This document shows, one piece after another, positions 25,343-41,785 of a stretch of 46,091 nucleotides of DNA; position 1 is the first letter of the stretch, and every line of letters starts with the position of its first letter. The stretch is from a virus, in the IMG/VR virus record IMGVR_UViG_3300024240_000005, positions 1 through 46,091 of that record. One strand, written 5' to 3'. Under the pieces are notes generated by a model that ran no database searches, had not been told where the DNA came from, and saw nothing but the letters and a program-made list of their open reading frames with translations. The translations under genes were made by a program, and so were the position numbers.

Positions 25343-25982
25343 TCGCGAACTCTTTCTGTATAAGAATCTGGTGTTTGGTTACCCATGAACGGGAATATTC
25401 TGTGTTCTTGAAAAGCTTGCTGAACCCGGTAATGTGTTTAAGCTTTAACAATTCTTCTGGCTCCATACCAAGTTCATTACAAATGGCAGCATCTTCCCAC
25501 CCGTTATCAAGCATGTTGAATACCATTGATGACATACCGGAAATCGAATGTTTTCCCCGGGCCCTGTTATGACGGACAGTTGAGGCCATACGGTCATTGA
25601 TATCTTTCTTGATTACCGTAACCGGAACCATGCCAAGGTTACTATCGTAAATATCCTTGTTATTCAGGGCCACAAAATACCGGTGAAAGCCGTCAACGAT
25701 AATATACTTCCCAAGCTTTTCATCATAGATAGTTACAATAGGCTGAGTATAACCATCATGTGAAATTGAGGTATGAAGAAGTTTCATTTCAGTCCGGGCC
25801 ACAGAATTAGGATTGTAGTCATTAGGCTGAACCTTGTCAATAGGAACCCAACGTACTAAATCTACCGGCTGAGCATTTACCGGGGAAAGTTCATGAAGGA
25901 ATTCCCTTATCTCATTGAGGAATTTCAGTTTGTCCTTTGCCTCATCAAACGCTGACTTTATCTGTTTTTTTAAATCTTTCAT
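25326..25982 (-). CDS. ParB/Srx-fold protein, IbrB-like
   Basis: 218 residues. The ParB-type nuclease-like domain spans residues about 45-135: VPIDKVQPNDYNPN, LHTSISHDGYTQPIVTI, VDGFHRYFVAL and TVRHNRARGKH. The last motif is a signature of the IbrB branch, which occurs with IbrA-type PAPS reductases in prophages and phages. A C-terminal helical DNA-binding part follows (AICNELGMEPEELLKLKHI). Its partner gene lies immediately upstream with a 38-base overlap. It may regulate transcription or act with the reductase in DNA modification; neither is proven here. Confidence 0.8.
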   Translation of the reverse strand: MKDLKKQIKSAFDEAKDKLKFLNEIREFLHELSPVNAQPVDLVRWVPIDKVQPNDYNPNSVARTEMKLLHTSISHDGYTQPIVTIYDEKLGKYIIVDGFHRYFVALNNKDIYDSNLGMVPVTVIKKDINDRMASTVRHNRARGKHSISGMSSMVFNMLDNGWEDAAICNELGMEPEELLKLKHITGFSKLFKNTEYSRSWVTKHQILIQKEFANEKQE

Positions 25983-27120
25983 AATCGATGTATAGATTTG
26001 GGTAAGGGTCTTGCTTCCCGGATTCCTTATATTTCAGCCAAGAATTTATCTGGGGTGCACGCTTCCAGTTATTAAGCTTTGTGAAATAATAGTCGTTTGC
26101 CAAGATAGAATTTATCTCAATCATACAAAGGCTTTTCACAATCAGGTCATTATCACAATACCGCTTATCAGCTGACGCAAATTCTTTGCGGTAAATCTCC
26201 CTTATGGTTTCGTCCGAGATAAGGTTCTCGAGTAGGTAGTCGCGATATTCAGTCCATGACACAAACATATACGGAAGGTCCTTAATAAAAAACATATCCC
26301 GCTTGGTCTGCCCGGCCGTACTTATGCCATGTATTCTTTTGGTTATCCGGTTCCAGTTATCGGCCTCAATTTCCTGCAGATAGAATAGTGAATGAATTGC
26401 CGTTTCGTGGTGAACATTTGATACCCGCATATTCATTACCCGGACGCCGTACTGATACATGTAATCGTAAATCTTGCAATAGTCCCAACTATGATCAAAG
26501 ATTGACTTCCATATATCCCGGTAACTCCAATCATAAAGCGGGTAAAAAGTATAATGATTAAGCTTCTTGTTATTGGCGTTCCCCCATGTAATCCATTTAT
26601 AGGTTGCCTTTGATGTAAGGCCAATCATCCGGGAAGGGGATTCTTCACAACGAACCCCGGCGATATATGCCGTTGGCGTATCAGGGAATTCAACATCAAC
26701 GATATTTCCGAAAAGATATTTGAATCGTTCCGTCCCGTACTTATTTTCCTTGATGCTAATTTCTTCTTTAGGTCTAATCCATTCTTCCCCTTCGGCCCAA
26801 CAGTAAAGCCATGACTGAATGGTTGAAGTTGAATTGAATATTTTGATGGGCATTTGAAACCAGTAAGGTTTTATTTCCGGATTATTCATTACGTCCCGGA
26901 TATAGGAAATGACGGTGTCCCACTCTGCTTCCTGATCAATAAACATAACATTCAGCGGAAGCCGGTTCTTCTCCCGGGCCACCATCAGGGCAAGGTTAAG
27001 GCAAACGGTTGAGTCTTTCCCCCCGGAAAAAGCTACAACGATATTCGGGAATTCATCAAACAGGTAACGAATACGATCAAGGGCTGAATCAAAAACATTC
27101 TCTTTAAGGAACATTTTCAT
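25945..27120 (-). CDS. PAPS reductase-family protein, IbrA-like (DUF3440)
   Basis: 391 residues with the adenylation loop VVAFSGGKDSTVCLNLAL (SGGKDS at residues 32-37), shared by PAPS reductases, DndC and other ATP-pyrophosphatases. Long downstream parts (IAGVRCEESPSRM, KKLNHYTFYPLYDWSYRDIW, NVHHETAIHSLFYLQEIEAD) fit the DUF3440/IbrA branch rather than sulfate-assimilation enzymes. In this family an activated adenylate is formed; the true substrate in phages is unknown. Overlaps with the methyltransferase gene (4 bp) and IbrB-like gene (38 bp) show they form one unit. Confidence 0.85.
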   Translation of the reverse strand: MKMFLKENVFDSALDRIRYLFDEFPNIVVAFSGGKDSTVCLNLALMVAREKNRLPLNVMFIDQEAEWDTVISYIRDVMNNPEIKPYWFQMPIKIFNSTSTIQSWLYCWAEGEEWIRPKEEISIKENKYGTERFKYLFGNIVDVEFPDTPTAYIAGVRCEESPSRMIGLTSKATYKWITWGNANNKKLNHYTFYPLYDWSYRDIWKSIFDHSWDYCKIYDYMYQYGVRVMNMRVSNVHHETAIHSLFYLQEIEADNWNRITKRIHGISTAGQTKRDMFFIKDLPYMFVSWTEYRDYLLENLISDETIREIYRKEFASADKRYCDNDLIVKSLCMIEINSILANDYYFTKLNNWKRAPQINSWLKYKESGKQDPYPNLYIDYERFKKTDKVSV

Positions 27121-27887
27121 AACCGGACAATTTTGTAATTGTGATATTCTTCCCCAGGCATTTCATTATTAAAATGCTTTATACATAATCCGGTCTGTAA
27201 GTATGTAACCGGGGTATAGTCATTCTTATAGAACATCAGGAAGGCGGTCCCGTTTTTATTAAGCATTGATCTTACCCGGCTTATCGCCCCGGGCGTGATA
27301 TAACTCGGTGAACCAAATAGGGAAATGATAGTATCAAATTTCTGTTCCCACGCAAAATCTTCAAAGGCGCAGTTTATGGTAAAATAATCAGGATGATTTT
27401 TCTTGAAGAACCCGAGCATATTAAATGATGGGTCAATACCTACATAGTCAAGCGGAAGGATTTTTGCGTAATCAAGTAACAGGCCCGACCCGCAACCTAT
27501 GTCAAGAACTGAACCCTTTATGTCAATTTTTGATATTACTTCCCGGTTTTCTTCTTCGCTTTTATCATCATGGAAAAGCCCTTGGTACTGATCTGCTATT
27601 ACGTCATAATCATTATGAGAAATATTTACGGCCCGGTTTATCAGAATTGTATCGCTTAGGGGGGCTCCCATAGTCCAATATTTATATCCGTTGAGTTTGA
27701 ACATCTTGAAGGGCCTGCCGTGAAAGTGTTCCGTATAGGAATTATCCCGGATGAATTTTACCACGTCCTCAAAGTGATTAGTTCCCCAATTCTTACGAAG
27801 CGTATACCAATGGGGATTCTGTGGCATTGACTTTGCAAAGGTATATTCCTGTGCAATAAGTATCTTGGCGCATTGGTCAAATGTCAT
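27117..27887 (-). CDS. SAM-dependent methyltransferase
   Basis: 256 residues. A class I methyltransferase core starts near residue 125 with GSVLDIGCGSGLLLDY (motif I), DYVGIDPSFNML (acidic loop), FDTIISLFGSPSYI (motif IV) and LNKNGTAFLMFY (motif VI). The N-terminal 110 residues are a separate part (HWYTLRKNWGTNHFEDVV) seen in phage proteins of this type. The substrate may be DNA, a nucleotide or a small molecule; no DPPY or IRDxDPPY DNA-methylase motif is visible. It lies between ParB-like and IbrA-like genes, with 4-bp overlaps on both sides. Confidence 0.8.
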   Translation of the reverse strand: MTFDQCAKILIAQEYTFAKSMPQNPHWYTLRKNWGTNHFEDVVKFIRDNSYTEHFHGRPFKMFKLNGYKYWTMGAPLSDTILINRAVNISHNDYDVIADQYQGLFHDDKSEEENREVISKIDIKGSVLDIGCGSGLLLDYAKILPLDYVGIDPSFNMLGFFKKNHPDYFTINCAFEDFAWEQKFDTIISLFGSPSYITPGAISRVRSMLNKNGTAFLMFYKNDYTPVTYLQTGLCIKHFNNEMPGEEYHNYKIVRL

Positions 27888-28441
27888 GGTTTCTTAATAT
27901 CAAATACGTTTGCACACTTGGGGCAACATACTTCAATAAACTCTGTGTGTCCTTCCTGAAAGGCGCCATTTAGTTTATTCCCGGCGTTGATAATATCCTT
28001 ACCGGTTACATCGCCCTGTGAAGTTTCCGGGGAAAGATTAGGTGAGAAGGAAGAATAGTCTGTTTTCATGACCCCCCAATCTACAAGCGGACTGTCAGAC
28101 CATTCATTGGCAAAGGCGTCCCAATCATTTTCTCCATAATGGGAATTGTCCTTAACAATAAACGCCTTTAGTTTATCTATCGGCGTGTCATCCGGAAGAC
28201 GCATTATCGGTACTTCCTTCCATTTTAGTTCTTTACAGGCTCGGAGCCTCATGTTACCCCCAACGACTATATCCCGGAAAACGTATATGGGTTTGAATTC
28301 CATAAACTCCGGGTCTTCCTGAATTGATTTCAGAAGTCGTTTGTACTGTACATCTTTTATTAATCTTGGGTTTGCGGGGACGCCCTCAATCTGACCGGTA
28401 TTCAGAGAAAGCGAATTGATCTTTACAAGTTCTATTTCCAT
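27884..28441 (-). CDS. ParB-like N-terminal domain protein with zinc-ribbon end
   Basis: 185 residues, first gene of the leftward unit. Residues 1-75 are a ParB-type domain (EGVPANPRLIKDVQYKRLL, IVVGGNMRLRACKELKW). The following DKLKAFIVKDNSHYGENDWD and LVDWGV stretch is the usual linker of phage ParB-methylase proteins, and the C-terminus ends in a Cys pair CCPKCANVF. It resembles the DNA-binding half of such two-domain methylases without the methylase, the methyltransferase being supplied by the next gene. The start overlaps nothing; its promoter lies 19-50 bases upstream. Confidence 0.75.
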   Translation of the reverse strand: MEIELVKINSLSLNTGQIEGVPANPRLIKDVQYKRLLKSIQEDPEFMEFKPIYVFRDIVVGGNMRLRACKELKWKEVPIMRLPDDTPIDKLKAFIVKDNSHYGENDWDAFANEWSDSPLVDWGVMKTDYSSFSPNLSPETSQGDVTGKDIINAGNKLNGAFQEGHTEFIEVCCPKCANVFDIKKP

Positions 28442-28459
28442 TGGATGATTTGAGAACTA

Positions 28460-28491
28460 CAAAACTATACTATTCAGAATTAAGAACCAAA
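28460..28491 (-). promoter_or_regulatory. Bacteroidota-type promoter for the leftward operon
   Basis: Reading the minus strand: TTTG (28491-28488), a 20-base spacer, then TAGTTTTG (28467-28460). This fits the TTTG-N19-21-TAnnTTTG consensus of Bacteroidota primary-sigma promoters exactly. Transcription would start about 8 bases further, leaving a very short leader before the ATG at 28441. Confidence 0.75.
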
Positions 28492-28528
28492 TAAAAATAT
28501 ATGCAGATTTATTGTAAATATATAGTAA

Positions 28529-28536
28529 TATATTTG
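28529..28536 (+). promoter_or_regulatory. Bacteroidota-type -7 box for the rightward operon
   Basis: TATATTTG matches TAnnTTTG and lies 64 bases upstream of the first rightward gene. The -33 region is weak: only ATTT near 28507 is at about the right distance. The sequence around it is very A/T-rich (28491-28535), which would help melting. A palindrome just downstream could regulate it. Confidence 0.55.
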
Positions 28537-28551
28537 CACAACTAAACGATT

Positions 28552-28569
28552 CTTCGTAACTTTACGAAG
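28552..28569. promoter_or_regulatory. Operator-like inverted repeat
   Basis: CTTCGTAA and TTACGAAG form a perfect 8-bp inverted repeat around a CT spacer, 15 bases after the rightward -7 box. This is where a repressor dimer could block the early promoter, or where a hairpin would form at the 5' end of the message. No repressor gene is evident; the HTH protein at 42530-42751 and the ParB-like protein are candidates. Confidence 0.5.
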
Positions 28570-28586
28570 TAAAGATGATAAGAACC

Positions 28587-28595
28587 AAAAGCGAC
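28587..28595 (+). promoter_or_regulatory. Class I leader motif AAAAGCGAC before a start codon
   Basis: AAAAGCGAC ends 4 bases before ATG 28600. The same nine bases occur before the starts at 29226 and 41585, and a near copy (AAAACGAC) before 31110. It may be a translation-initiation signal in a host that lacks Shine-Dalgarno pairing, or a target for the RNA at 35878-36000. Confidence 0.5.
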
Positions 28596-28599
28596 AAAG

Positions 28600-29013
28600 A
28601 TGAAAATTCAAGAGTACAGGGAACTAAAAGAACAGTTGGGCCACGAACCAACCCCCCAAGAAGAAAGAGAATATGAAGTCAATCAGATCATGCAGATTAA
28701 GAAGTATGCGAACCATCTAATGTATTCGGACATTGACCCTTACGAAGTAATAAAAACCATATCACCGATATGCGTTGAAGTACGGGCCATGAAAACAACC
28801 CAAATTTCCCATCCAAAGGAGTTTTACCCCGGGGGATTTGTTGGTCACTTTGCCGATAATAGAGGCGGTCAGGATTACACTTATGAATCAGACGAAAATG
28901 GTCAGGTATTCAGAATCAGATTTAGCCGGGCAAAAGGTCAATGGTTTGACCGGAACAATGGCCGGTACGGAATGTCAGAGGCCCCATATAAATTTTACGA
29001 TTATAACTTTTAA
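28600..29013 (+). CDS. First rightward gene, unknown function
   Basis: 137 residues. The N-terminal half is helical and charged (LKEQLGHEPTPQEEREYEVN, MQIKKYANHLMYS); the second half contains FVGHFADNRGGQDYTYESDE and FRIRFSRAKGQWFDRNNGRY, an aromatic beta region. No known domain is recognised. As the first gene after the rightward promoter and operator it is likely expressed earliest and could act on the host. The start is supported by a class I leader motif 4 bases upstream. Confidence 0.6.
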   Translation: MKIQEYRELKEQLGHEPTPQEEREYEVNQIMQIKKYANHLMYSDIDPYEVIKTISPICVEVRAMKTTQISHPKEFYPGGFVGHFADNRGGQDYTYESDENGQVFRIRFSRAKGQWFDRNNGRYGMSEAPYKFYDYNF

Positions 29014-29216: not shown

Positions 29217-29225
29217 AAAAGCGAC
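29217..29225 (+). promoter_or_regulatory. Class I leader motif directly before a start codon
   Basis: AAAAGCGAC abuts ATG 29226 with no spacer. It is identical to the copies at 28587 and 41574. The zero spacing makes an ordinary ribosome-binding site unlikely. Confidence 0.5.
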
Positions 29226-29408
29226 ATGAAAACGAAAAAGTATTTGAAGGTTCTTGGTAAACGTAATGACGGAACCCTGTTCAGCAATCCGCTGAAACTT
29301 TCCGAAGCCCACCTGATCTCAAAGATCGCACAGGAGAATATGTACATTACCCGGGTACAGTGTATTGAGGTTCCAGAATCAGAGTATAACGCAATATTTG
29401 GTAAGTAA
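29226..29408 (+). CDS. Small basic protein, unknown
   Basis: 60 residues. The sequence starts MKTKKYLKVLGKRNDGTLFS and has a helical middle (LKLSEAHLISKIAQENMY) and a short C-terminal strand (VQCIEVPESEY). It shares one base with the start of the next gene, so the two are probably translated together. No recognised family. Confidence 0.5.
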   Translation: MKTKKYLKVLGKRNDGTLFSNPLKLSEAHLISKIAQENMYITRVQCIEVPESEYNAIFGK

Positions 29409-29953: not shown

Positions 29954-29964
29954 AAATCAGAAGC
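29954..29964 (+). promoter_or_regulatory. Class II leader motif AAATCAGAAGC
   Basis: AAATCAGAAGC lies 3 bases before ATG 29968. Identical copies stand before the starts at 34074 and 37881, far from each other. It is a repeated leader element of unknown role, possibly for translation initiation. Confidence 0.5.
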
Positions 29965-31092: not shown

Positions 31093-31109
31093 TAACTAAA
31101 AAAACGACT

Positions 31110-34938: not shown

Positions 34939-35841
34939 ATGGCAACACAGACTGAAATTCACAAAGCACACAAGCGGGGAATTGGCGGGTCAGAAGTATC
35001 AGCTATTCTCGGACTTGATAAATATTCTTCCCCTTACAAAATATGGCTTATTAAAACAGGCCGGGAAGAATCATTTAAGGGAAACAAATATACCGTTGCC
35101 GGTAACCGTCTTGAACCGGCCGTGGTAGAATACTTTCAGGAGGAAACCAAATACCGGGTAATAAAATCTTCGGCCAACCAGAAATTAGTAATTCATCCAA
35201 AGTATGAGTTCGCGATTGGTTACCGGGACCGTCTGTATATCCGTAATTCAACTATCGGCAAGGGCGTTCTTGAATGCAAGACAACCCAACAGATGATTGA
35301 TGATGTACCCGAAACATGGTTCGCACAATTACAATGGTACCTTGGTATTTCTGATCTAAGTTATGGAGCCGTTGCATGGTTGGAAAAGGGCCTTGATTTC
35401 AAATACAAGGAATATGAGTATGACCCGGAATTCTTCAATTACATGATTGAGCACGTAAGGGAGTTTTGGGAATCATACATACTTCCTGATGTGCCCCCAC
35501 CGCCAATGAACGTTGATGATATCAACCGAATGTTCACCCGGCATATCGAAGGTTCCAAGATGGACGCCGGGCCGGAAATGATCTCCGTTCATAATGAACT
35601 AAAAACGGTAAAGGAGAAGATCAAAGAACTGGAAACCCGGGAAACGGAATTATCAGACCGGGTAAAGTTCGCAATGCGTGACACGGAAGTTGTACTTGAA
35701 GGAACCAAGCCACTTTTCACATGGCGTACAACCGCACCTATTCACTCATTTAATAAGGATGCGTTTAAGGTTGCAAACCCTGATCTTTACGAACACTTCA
35801 CAGAGGAAAAGCCCGGCATCAGAAAGTTCCTTGTAAAATAA
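34939..35841 (+). CDS. YqaJ-type viral exonuclease
   Basis: 300 residues. Motifs of the lambda-exonuclease-like YqaJ family appear in order: GIGGSEVSAILGLDKYSSPY (residues about 15-34), AGNRLEPAVVEYF, FAIGYRDRLY supplying the metal Asp, GKGVLECKTT giving the E-x-K pair, and AQLQWYLGISDLSYGAVAW. The enzyme resects double-stranded ends to feed the annealing protein encoded upstream. A C-terminal coiled coil (KTVKEKIKELETRETELSDR) is common in this family. The downstream gap contains the RNA candidate. Confidence 0.85.
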   Translation: MATQTEIHKAHKRGIGGSEVSAILGLDKYSSPYKIWLIKTGREESFKGNKYTVAGNRLEPAVVEYFQEETKYRVIKSSANQKLVIHPKYEFAIGYRDRLYIRNSTIGKGVLECKTTQQMIDDVPETWFAQLQWYLGISDLSYGAVAWLEKGLDFKYKEYEYDPEFFNYMIEHVREFWESYILPDVPPPPMNVDDINRMFTRHIEGSKMDAGPEMISVHNELKTVKEKIKELETRETELSDRVKFAMRDTEVVLEGTKPLFTWRTTAPIHSFNKDAFKVANPDLYEHFTEEKPGIRKFLVK

Positions 35842-35843
35842 AG

Positions 35844-35874
35844 TTGCAGACGGAAGATTAGTTTCTTACTTTTG
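35844..35874 (+). promoter_or_regulatory. Bacteroidota-type promoter of the RNA candidate
   Basis: TTG at 35844-35846, a 20-base spacer, then TACTTTTG at 35867-35874, matching TAnnTTTG. Start of transcription would be near 35880, exactly at the first arm of the structured region. This is the best plus-strand promoter match in the window. Confidence 0.65.
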
Positions 35875-35877
35875 TAA

Positions 35878-36000
35878 TGAAGCGACTAAAAGATAAGGAT
35901 TATGGAAAAAAAGAAATTCACATTTGAGCCAGCCCCGATAGAATCTTTGTCTTGGTTAGTCGCTTTTCCACTCAAAATATCGCCGGGGCTCGGCTTTTTT
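35878..36000 (+). ncRNA. Candidate structured small RNA with pseudoknot topology and terminal T-run
   Basis: The 172-base gap after the exonuclease gene holds two interlocked inverted repeats. Arm A AAGCGACTAA (35880-35889) pairs perfectly with A' TTAGTCGCTT (35956-35965). Arm B AGCC/AGCCCCG plus ATA (35927-35940) pairs with B' (35978-35995: TATC, CGGGGCT, GGCT), followed by TTTTTT. The order A-B-A'-B' is that of a pseudoknot, and B-B' plus the T-run looks like a terminator. A second pairing for the A' region exists (TGGAAAA 35903-35909 with TTTTCCA 35964-35970), allowing a switch. Bases 35959-35967 (GTCGCTTTT) are complementary to the class I leader motifs at 28587, 29217 and 41574. A short reading frame overlaps it (next entry). 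Confidence 0.55.
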
Positions 36001-36021
36001 AATACTATACGTAATGGGTAA
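35902..36021 (+). CDS. Possible 39-residue ORF inside the RNA candidate
   Basis: ATG 35902 to TAA 36019-36021, overlapping the next gene by 8 bases. Product starts MEKKKFTFEPAPIESLSWLV and contains FPLKISPGLGFFNTI. The DNA is constrained by the inverted repeats, and the coding sequence spans the T-run, so it may be a chance frame, a leader peptide or a real small gene whose message is attenuated. Listed with low confidence. Confidence 0.25.
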   Translation: MEKKKFTFEPAPIESLSWLVAFPLKISPGLGFFNTIRNG

Positions 36022-41509: not shown

Positions 41510-41573
41510 ATTATATTACTATTTATTTGGATAATGAAGACTGGTTTACTAACTTTAGGTTACAAACCAAGTA

Positions 41574-41582
41574 AAAAGCGAC
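41574..41582 (+). promoter_or_regulatory. Class I leader motif AAAAGCGAC
   Basis: Third exact copy, two bases before ATG 41585. It supports that ATG as the true start rather than the in-frame ATG at 41534. Confidence 0.5.
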
Positions 41583-41584
41583 AC

Positions 41585-41785
41585 ATGGAAACAAAGGTAA
41601 TCAAGACAGAAACCGGGGGAACCTGGGATTTAAATAAGCCCGTAAGAAGCTCACTTTTTAAAGGTAATGGAAAGCTTACCGGGGCAATTGAATATCATAC
41701 CCTTCATGGAGAACAGGAATGTATGATAGAAGTTGATCACGGCTTCGGTACGGACTTCATTTTTGAACAATTCTTAAGTCAGTAA
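41585..41785 (+). CDS. Small protein, unknown
   Basis: 66 residues from ATG 41585. The class I leader two bases upstream decides this start; an in-frame ATG at 41534 would read through the leader. Sequence: METKVIKTETGGTWDLNKPV, FKGNGKLTGAIEYHTLHGEQ, ECMIEVDHGFGTDFIFEQFL. Beta-rich and acidic at the end. No family recognised. Confidence 0.5.
   Translation: METKVIKTETGGTWDLNKPVRSSLFKGNGKLTGAIEYHTLHGEQECMIEVDHGFGTDFIFEQFLSQ

Follow-up and report, generated by a model that had tools for sequence, protein, structure and literature searches.

A candidate structured small RNA in a Bacteroidetes phage, with a putative loop complementary to a start-site motif

A gap between the recombination and replication genes of a Bacteroidetes phage very probably encodes a new, conserved, structured RNA of the intergenic small-RNA kind that is capable of forming a pseudoknot. 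We assign this reading, which is drawn from sequence, a probability of roughly 85%, because the locus is kept in a related phage in which the overlapping reading frame is lost, and because a blind scan recovers it. How the predicted RNA would act is more tentative; pairing in trans with start sites that share a repeated motif and regulation of its own transcript in cis are both considered below.

Elements and setting of the locus

The window, i.e., the whole 46,091-nucleotide stretch analyzed, is a 46 kb virus record encoding a terminase (Terminase_3) and a Fib_succ_major protein. Searches with the terminase and the DUF2303-like protein found Bacteroidetes phages, and the window is a phage of Bacteroidetes-type bacteria. 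Bacteroidetes phages are abundant but their post-transcriptional control is poorly known, and Shine-Dalgarno sequences are largely absent from their hosts. The locus occupies a 172-base gap downstream of yqaJ, which is preceded by a gene that we read as RecT-like, and upstream of an HNH gene that starts 13 nt beyond a T-run. The putative RNA gene would thereby be placed between recombination genes (RecT-like, YqaJ) and replication genes (HNH, DnaD-like). The features are as follows.

34939-35841: YqaJ exonuclease gene (PF09588)
35844-35874 (+): promoter-like site of the Bacteroidetes type; TTG (−33, 35844-35846), N20, TACTTTTG (−7, box at 35867-35874, fits TAnnTTTG)
35879-35901 (+): arm A, GAAGCGACTAA (35879-35889) plus AAGATAAGGATT (35890-35901)
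35902-36021 (+): overlapping 39-codon frame (MEKKKFTFEPAPIESLSWLVAFPLKISPGLGFFNTIRNG), probably no gene, not conserved
35927-35940 (+): arm B, 5' side of the long-range terminator stem, AGCCAGCCCCG(ATA)
35942-35967 (+): arm A', AATCTTTGTCTT-GG-TTAGTCGCTTTT
35978-35995 (+): arm B', 3' side of the terminator stem; 35984-35995 is CGGGGCTCGGCT
35995-36000 (+): T-run, predicted 3' end of an RNA of ~120 nt
36014: start of the HNH gene, the next gene after the gap
36243: DnaD-like gene, after the HNH gene

The sequence-only reading had described two inverted repeats interlocked as A-B-A'-B' and followed by a T-run, and each of these elements is present at the positions given above. Bases 35880-35889 (AAGCGACTAA) are the exact reverse complement of 35956-35965. 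Stem A is longer than first noted, as 12 further pairs join 35890-35901 to 35942-35953 past a GG bulge. The B segment 35927-35937 pairs with 35984-35995 with one C bulged, and GATA/TATC pairing lengthens this stem to 35940/35978 with a CC bulge; the B' region also contains a small local hairpin, GCCG-GGGCT-CGGC. The start-site motif of the phage, AAGCGAC, lies in arm A, where the RNA is predicted to begin, and GTCGCTTTT, at 35959-35967 within A', complements leaders carrying AAAAGCGAC.

The promoter proposed in the same reading was confirmed in part. Both boxes are in place and the −7 box fits the TAnnTTTG consensus, taken from PMC7366714, but the two-box pattern TTG-N19..22-TAnnTTTG is no more frequent in the window than in shuffled sequence (3 occurrences vs 3.2 expected). 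Two of these three sites, both with N20, head a transcription unit. At the Rfam gathering score no family matches the RNA, C4-type immunity models included (C4 of phage P1 is an antisense immunity RNA), and a relaxed threshold returned only a chance match to CRISPR-DR24 (E = 4). Judged by sequence, the promoter-like site and the terminator bound a short non-coding stretch, as in intergenic sRNAs. Bacteroides thetaiotaomicron sRNAs such as GibS, defined by a transcription start site and an intrinsic terminator, share both the TAnnTTTG promoter type and the terminator-ended layout (PMC7366714); these are encoded on host chromosomes, and by sequence the phage RNA was compared with them through Rfam, where it had no match.

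Conservation and crossing stems in a relative phage

One close relative, IMGVR_UViG_3300027721_000257 (L011/L051, hereafter L051), has YqaJ and RecT-like proteins that are 63% and 75% identical to those of the window. It holds the same elements in the same place: downstream of its yqaJ follow, in order, TATATTTG, AAAAGCGAC, CCGTCCC, GTCGCTT, GGGACGG and TTTTT.

L051:5987: TAnnTTTG box TATATTTG, homologue of the window box
L051:6004-6010: arm A, AAGCGAC, identical 7 bases
L051:6036-6044: arm B, AGCCGTCCC
L051:6069-6075: arm A', GTCGCTT, identical 7 bases
L051:6092-6100: arm B'

Compensatory changes in both stems had been named as support for the structure. For B/B' they were found, with two double-sided changes and one one-sided change among nine aligned pairs and pairing retained throughout, whereas the 7-base core of A/A' is letter-identical between these two sequences and so provides no covariation evidence for the A/A' helix. 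A fixed A/A' core next to a varying B/B' is what would be expected if targets, as well as A, constrain A'.

All crossing stem pairs were searched in a 127-base region, with 1000 dinucleotide shuffles as control. The best crossing pair in the window is exactly A:A' with B:B' and was equalled in 1 of the 1000 shuffles; in L051 the homologous pair likewise ranks first (6/1000). Both phages hence hold crossing helices of the H-type pseudoknot kind that exceed chance and are kept in the relative. In a blind scan for a TAnnTTTG box followed by a terminator, the locus was the sole match in L051, and the window gave four matches, this locus among them. Such units make up about 0.4-0.5% of each genome, counting both strands, and the single plus-strand GTCGCTT found per genome falls inside them in both phages.

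Searches of viral contigs with YqaJ, RecT-like, HNH and phrog_8203 baits returned this single close relative, alignments of YqaJ and RecT in genome contigs gave no close relative beyond it, and a DNA search of the locus against phage records had no match. An exact scan of viral contigs for AAGCGAC..GTCGCTT..GGNTTTT yielded 29 matches; those other than the known relative were judged by eye to be chance-like and set aside. The case for a structured RNA, like that for trans pairing, comes from two genomes compared as sequences. In another phage, L014 (YqaJ ~35% identical), the gap preceding the next large gene contains a TATCTTTG box together with a terminator-like RNA that has a long loop (AAACTCCG..CGGAGTTT; L014:6155-6285); the fold of this RNA was not better than that of shuffles (z −1.05) and no convincing A/A' was seen.

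Proposed pairing in trans with start sites and competing explanations

We tentatively propose, at somewhat short of even odds, that a ~120-nt RNA pairs with start motifs in trans, hinders ribosomes and is masked by its own pseudoknot. The RNA would be transcribed from its own promoter and ended by an intrinsic terminator, and its 3' half would form the long B:B' hairpin with GUCGCUU exposed in the loop. This loop could base-pair with AAGCGAC located 0-5 nt before several starts and thereby hinder ribosome binding. The 5' end, a copy of the motif, would pair with the loop to give a pseudoknot that shields the 5' end, masks the seed and keeps the free RNA in check. By these means the RNA may switch the motif-led genes off together. 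A 5'-terminal self-copy of the putative target motif appears to be an unusual feature of this RNA.

Because the loop is the complement of start-proximal AAGCGAC, these sites are where the RNA would most likely base-pair. The 9-nt stretch at 35959-35967 is the exact complement of three leaders of the window, as had been claimed.

28587-28595 (+): AAAAGCGAC, 4 nt before the start at 28600, first gene of a plus-strand operon
29217-29225 (+): AAAAGCGAC, directly before the start at 29226
41574-41582 (+): AAAAGCGAC, 2 nt before the ATG at 41585, possibly internal to ORF 41534-41785

The third leader is less certain, since the ORF that contains the ATG at 41585 could begin further upstream, at 41534. 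In L051, AAAAGCGAC precedes two other starts, and the complementarity to these leaders extends over only 7 nt. Of the AAGCGAC copies, 3 of 6 for the window (p 2e-5) and 2 of 4 for L051 (p 2e-3) stand in leaders; four other Bacteroidetes phages have 17 copies, not one of them in a leader. BLASTP revealed no homology between the AAGCGAC-led genes of the window and those of L051.

The claim that the RNA pairs with mRNA leaders finds support in complementarity, in L051 as well, but not in duplex energies, which are no better than random: A' duplexes at −12 kcal/mol were obtained for 6/70 leaders vs 570/6142 random phage windows. In the window, the A:A' state is predicted at −31.6 kcal/mol and the B:B' state at −25.1, a difference of 6.5 in favor of A:A'. 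In the B:B' state, A' is largely free of pairing (0.78 and 0.72 in the two phages), with the motif complement in the hairpin loop in both; the predicted L051 fold places A' in or beside an apical loop. As A' pairs more stably with A and the leader duplexes are not exceptional, action in trans on the leaders stays a little below an even chance, and regulation in cis only is a serious contender, albeit a somewhat unlikely one.

According to this second explanation, the locus is the leader of the HNH/replication transcript, and the balance between A:A' and B:B' sets whether transcription stops at the T-run or reads through. Arm A would be the start-site motif of a short upstream frame on which A' closes, an attenuation arrangement comparable to IsrK. 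A and A' do share one RNA and are each other's best partners at the energy given above, and the next gene begins shortly past the T-run in L051 as in the window. Furthermore, AAAAGCGAC-A-ATG opens an 18-codon frame in L051 whose TGA lies right before A'. However, the upstream frames differ between the phages (16 codons from before A in the window, 18 from after A in L051), and the match of A' to leaders of unrelated genes is left unexplained unless A is one more start motif. IsrK, a short RNA of the Gifsy-1 prophage, has a start of its own, ends at a Rho-independent terminator and also has a read-through mRNA (PMC4825925). The likeness lies in a short terminator-ended RNA ahead of phage genes; IsrK belongs to a Salmonella prophage, and a pseudoknot is not mentioned in PMC4825925.

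Ordinary operon punctuation, that is, a yqaJ terminator and a replication promoter with the A/A' match reflecting a common host-type start motif, is improbable. TAnnTTTG boxes and T-runs are common and the two-box count does not exceed chance, but the promoter precedes rather than follows the terminator in both phages, the 7-base A and A' are identical in both, and hardly any shuffle matches the crossing stems of either. The sequence-only reading had allowed the overlapped 39-codon frame as an alternative. A gene for a 39-residue peptide, its translation coupled to that of the HNH gene through ATGGGTAA and the repeats being by-products, is very improbable: its open frame (35902-36021) overlaps the following start by 8 nt, but L051 lacks the frame while retaining the stems, tblastn of the peptide over 50,697 phage records gave no match, and the crossing stems stand at 1/1000 shuffles. 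Retention of the promoter-like box, terminator and crossing arms in L051 instead favors a probable small RNA.

For the proposed trans-acting RNA, the CI RNA encoded by satellite phage P4, an antisense immunity RNA, offers a parallel, as it is structured and pairs with transcripts of its own phage, including adjacent sequence (seqA/seqC; PMC4825925). P4 CI arises by processing of a longer transcript and works through premature termination, whereas here a separate promoter and terminator are predicted and, unlike for P4 CI, the putative targets are start sites of scattered genes. If true, an RNA aimed at a repeated start motif would be a simple means of many-gene control in such hosts, and the trans reading makes clear predictions on RNA ends and reciprocal mutations.

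The motif may also be viewed as a translation-initiation element, which counts against trans action. Bacteroidetes starts are A-rich, and A at −3, −6, −12 and −13 raises initiation (PMC6847099). The AAAA part of AAAAGCGAC-N0-5-ATG fits this Kozak-like rule, which leaves the GCGAC part and its repetition across genes of one phage unexplained. The motif is found among degenerate relatives: AAAAACGACT precedes starts at 31101 (+), 12741 (−) and 22703 (−) in the window and at L051:8345, and occurs in late genes too, and the further degenerate AAAAACGCGACT precedes other starts. A second start-proximal repeat, AATCAGAAGC(A0-4)ATG, is located at 29955, 34064 and 37869 (+) and 4887 (−), with 4/4 copies directly before an ATG, and no RNA complementary to it was found in the window. 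Given these degenerate relatives, the normality of A-rich starts and a repeat without an RNA, a start motif held in common is not by itself proof of an RNA target.

Another candidate RNA, in Bacteroides phage BS-TP2, and further loci

We searched phage records and contigs for G+C-containing leader motifs repeated in at least three genes. Besides the window, only Bacteroides phage BS-TP2 had such a motif among the phages examined; five further Bacteroidetes-related phage records had none of this kind. The BS-TP2 motif, ACACGATTATG, occurs at eight plus-strand places, mostly gene starts. A candidate antisense RNA lies on the minus strand of BS-TP2 (PQ571275.1) at about 26657-26590 (L060:18590-18657). 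On that strand CATAATCGTGT, which exactly complements ACACGATTATG together with the start codon, comes immediately after a TATATTTG box at 26657 and is succeeded by a long terminator hairpin (z −3.7) and a T-run. The motif copy at this site precedes no annotated gene. The chance that one among about nine antisense copies falls in such a unit is near 0.04 (9 x 0.004), for a case found post hoc, after looking; a search for relatives of the candidate RNA found none.

BS-TP2 thus presents an independent candidate of similar logic and is suggestive of a shared principle. A general version, in which some Bacteroidetes phages tag a gene set with a start motif and encode one complementary RNA for joint shut-off, would combine the self-copy and pseudoknot of the window RNA, opened by targets, with an independent case using a different motif in BS-TP2; we regard it as unlikely.

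Elsewhere in the window, a divergent promoter region (28430-28600) carries TAnnTTTG boxes at 28467 (minus) and 28529 (plus). A TTCGTAA..TTACGAA hairpin comes after the plus-strand box, within the 5' leader of the operon on that strand, and L051 shows a matching layout, with boxes at 904 (−) and 970 (+). Between this region and the terminase region sits a block (25945-28441) in which a PAPS-reductase-like gene (PF01507/DUF3440) adjoins methyltransferase-like and ParB-like genes.
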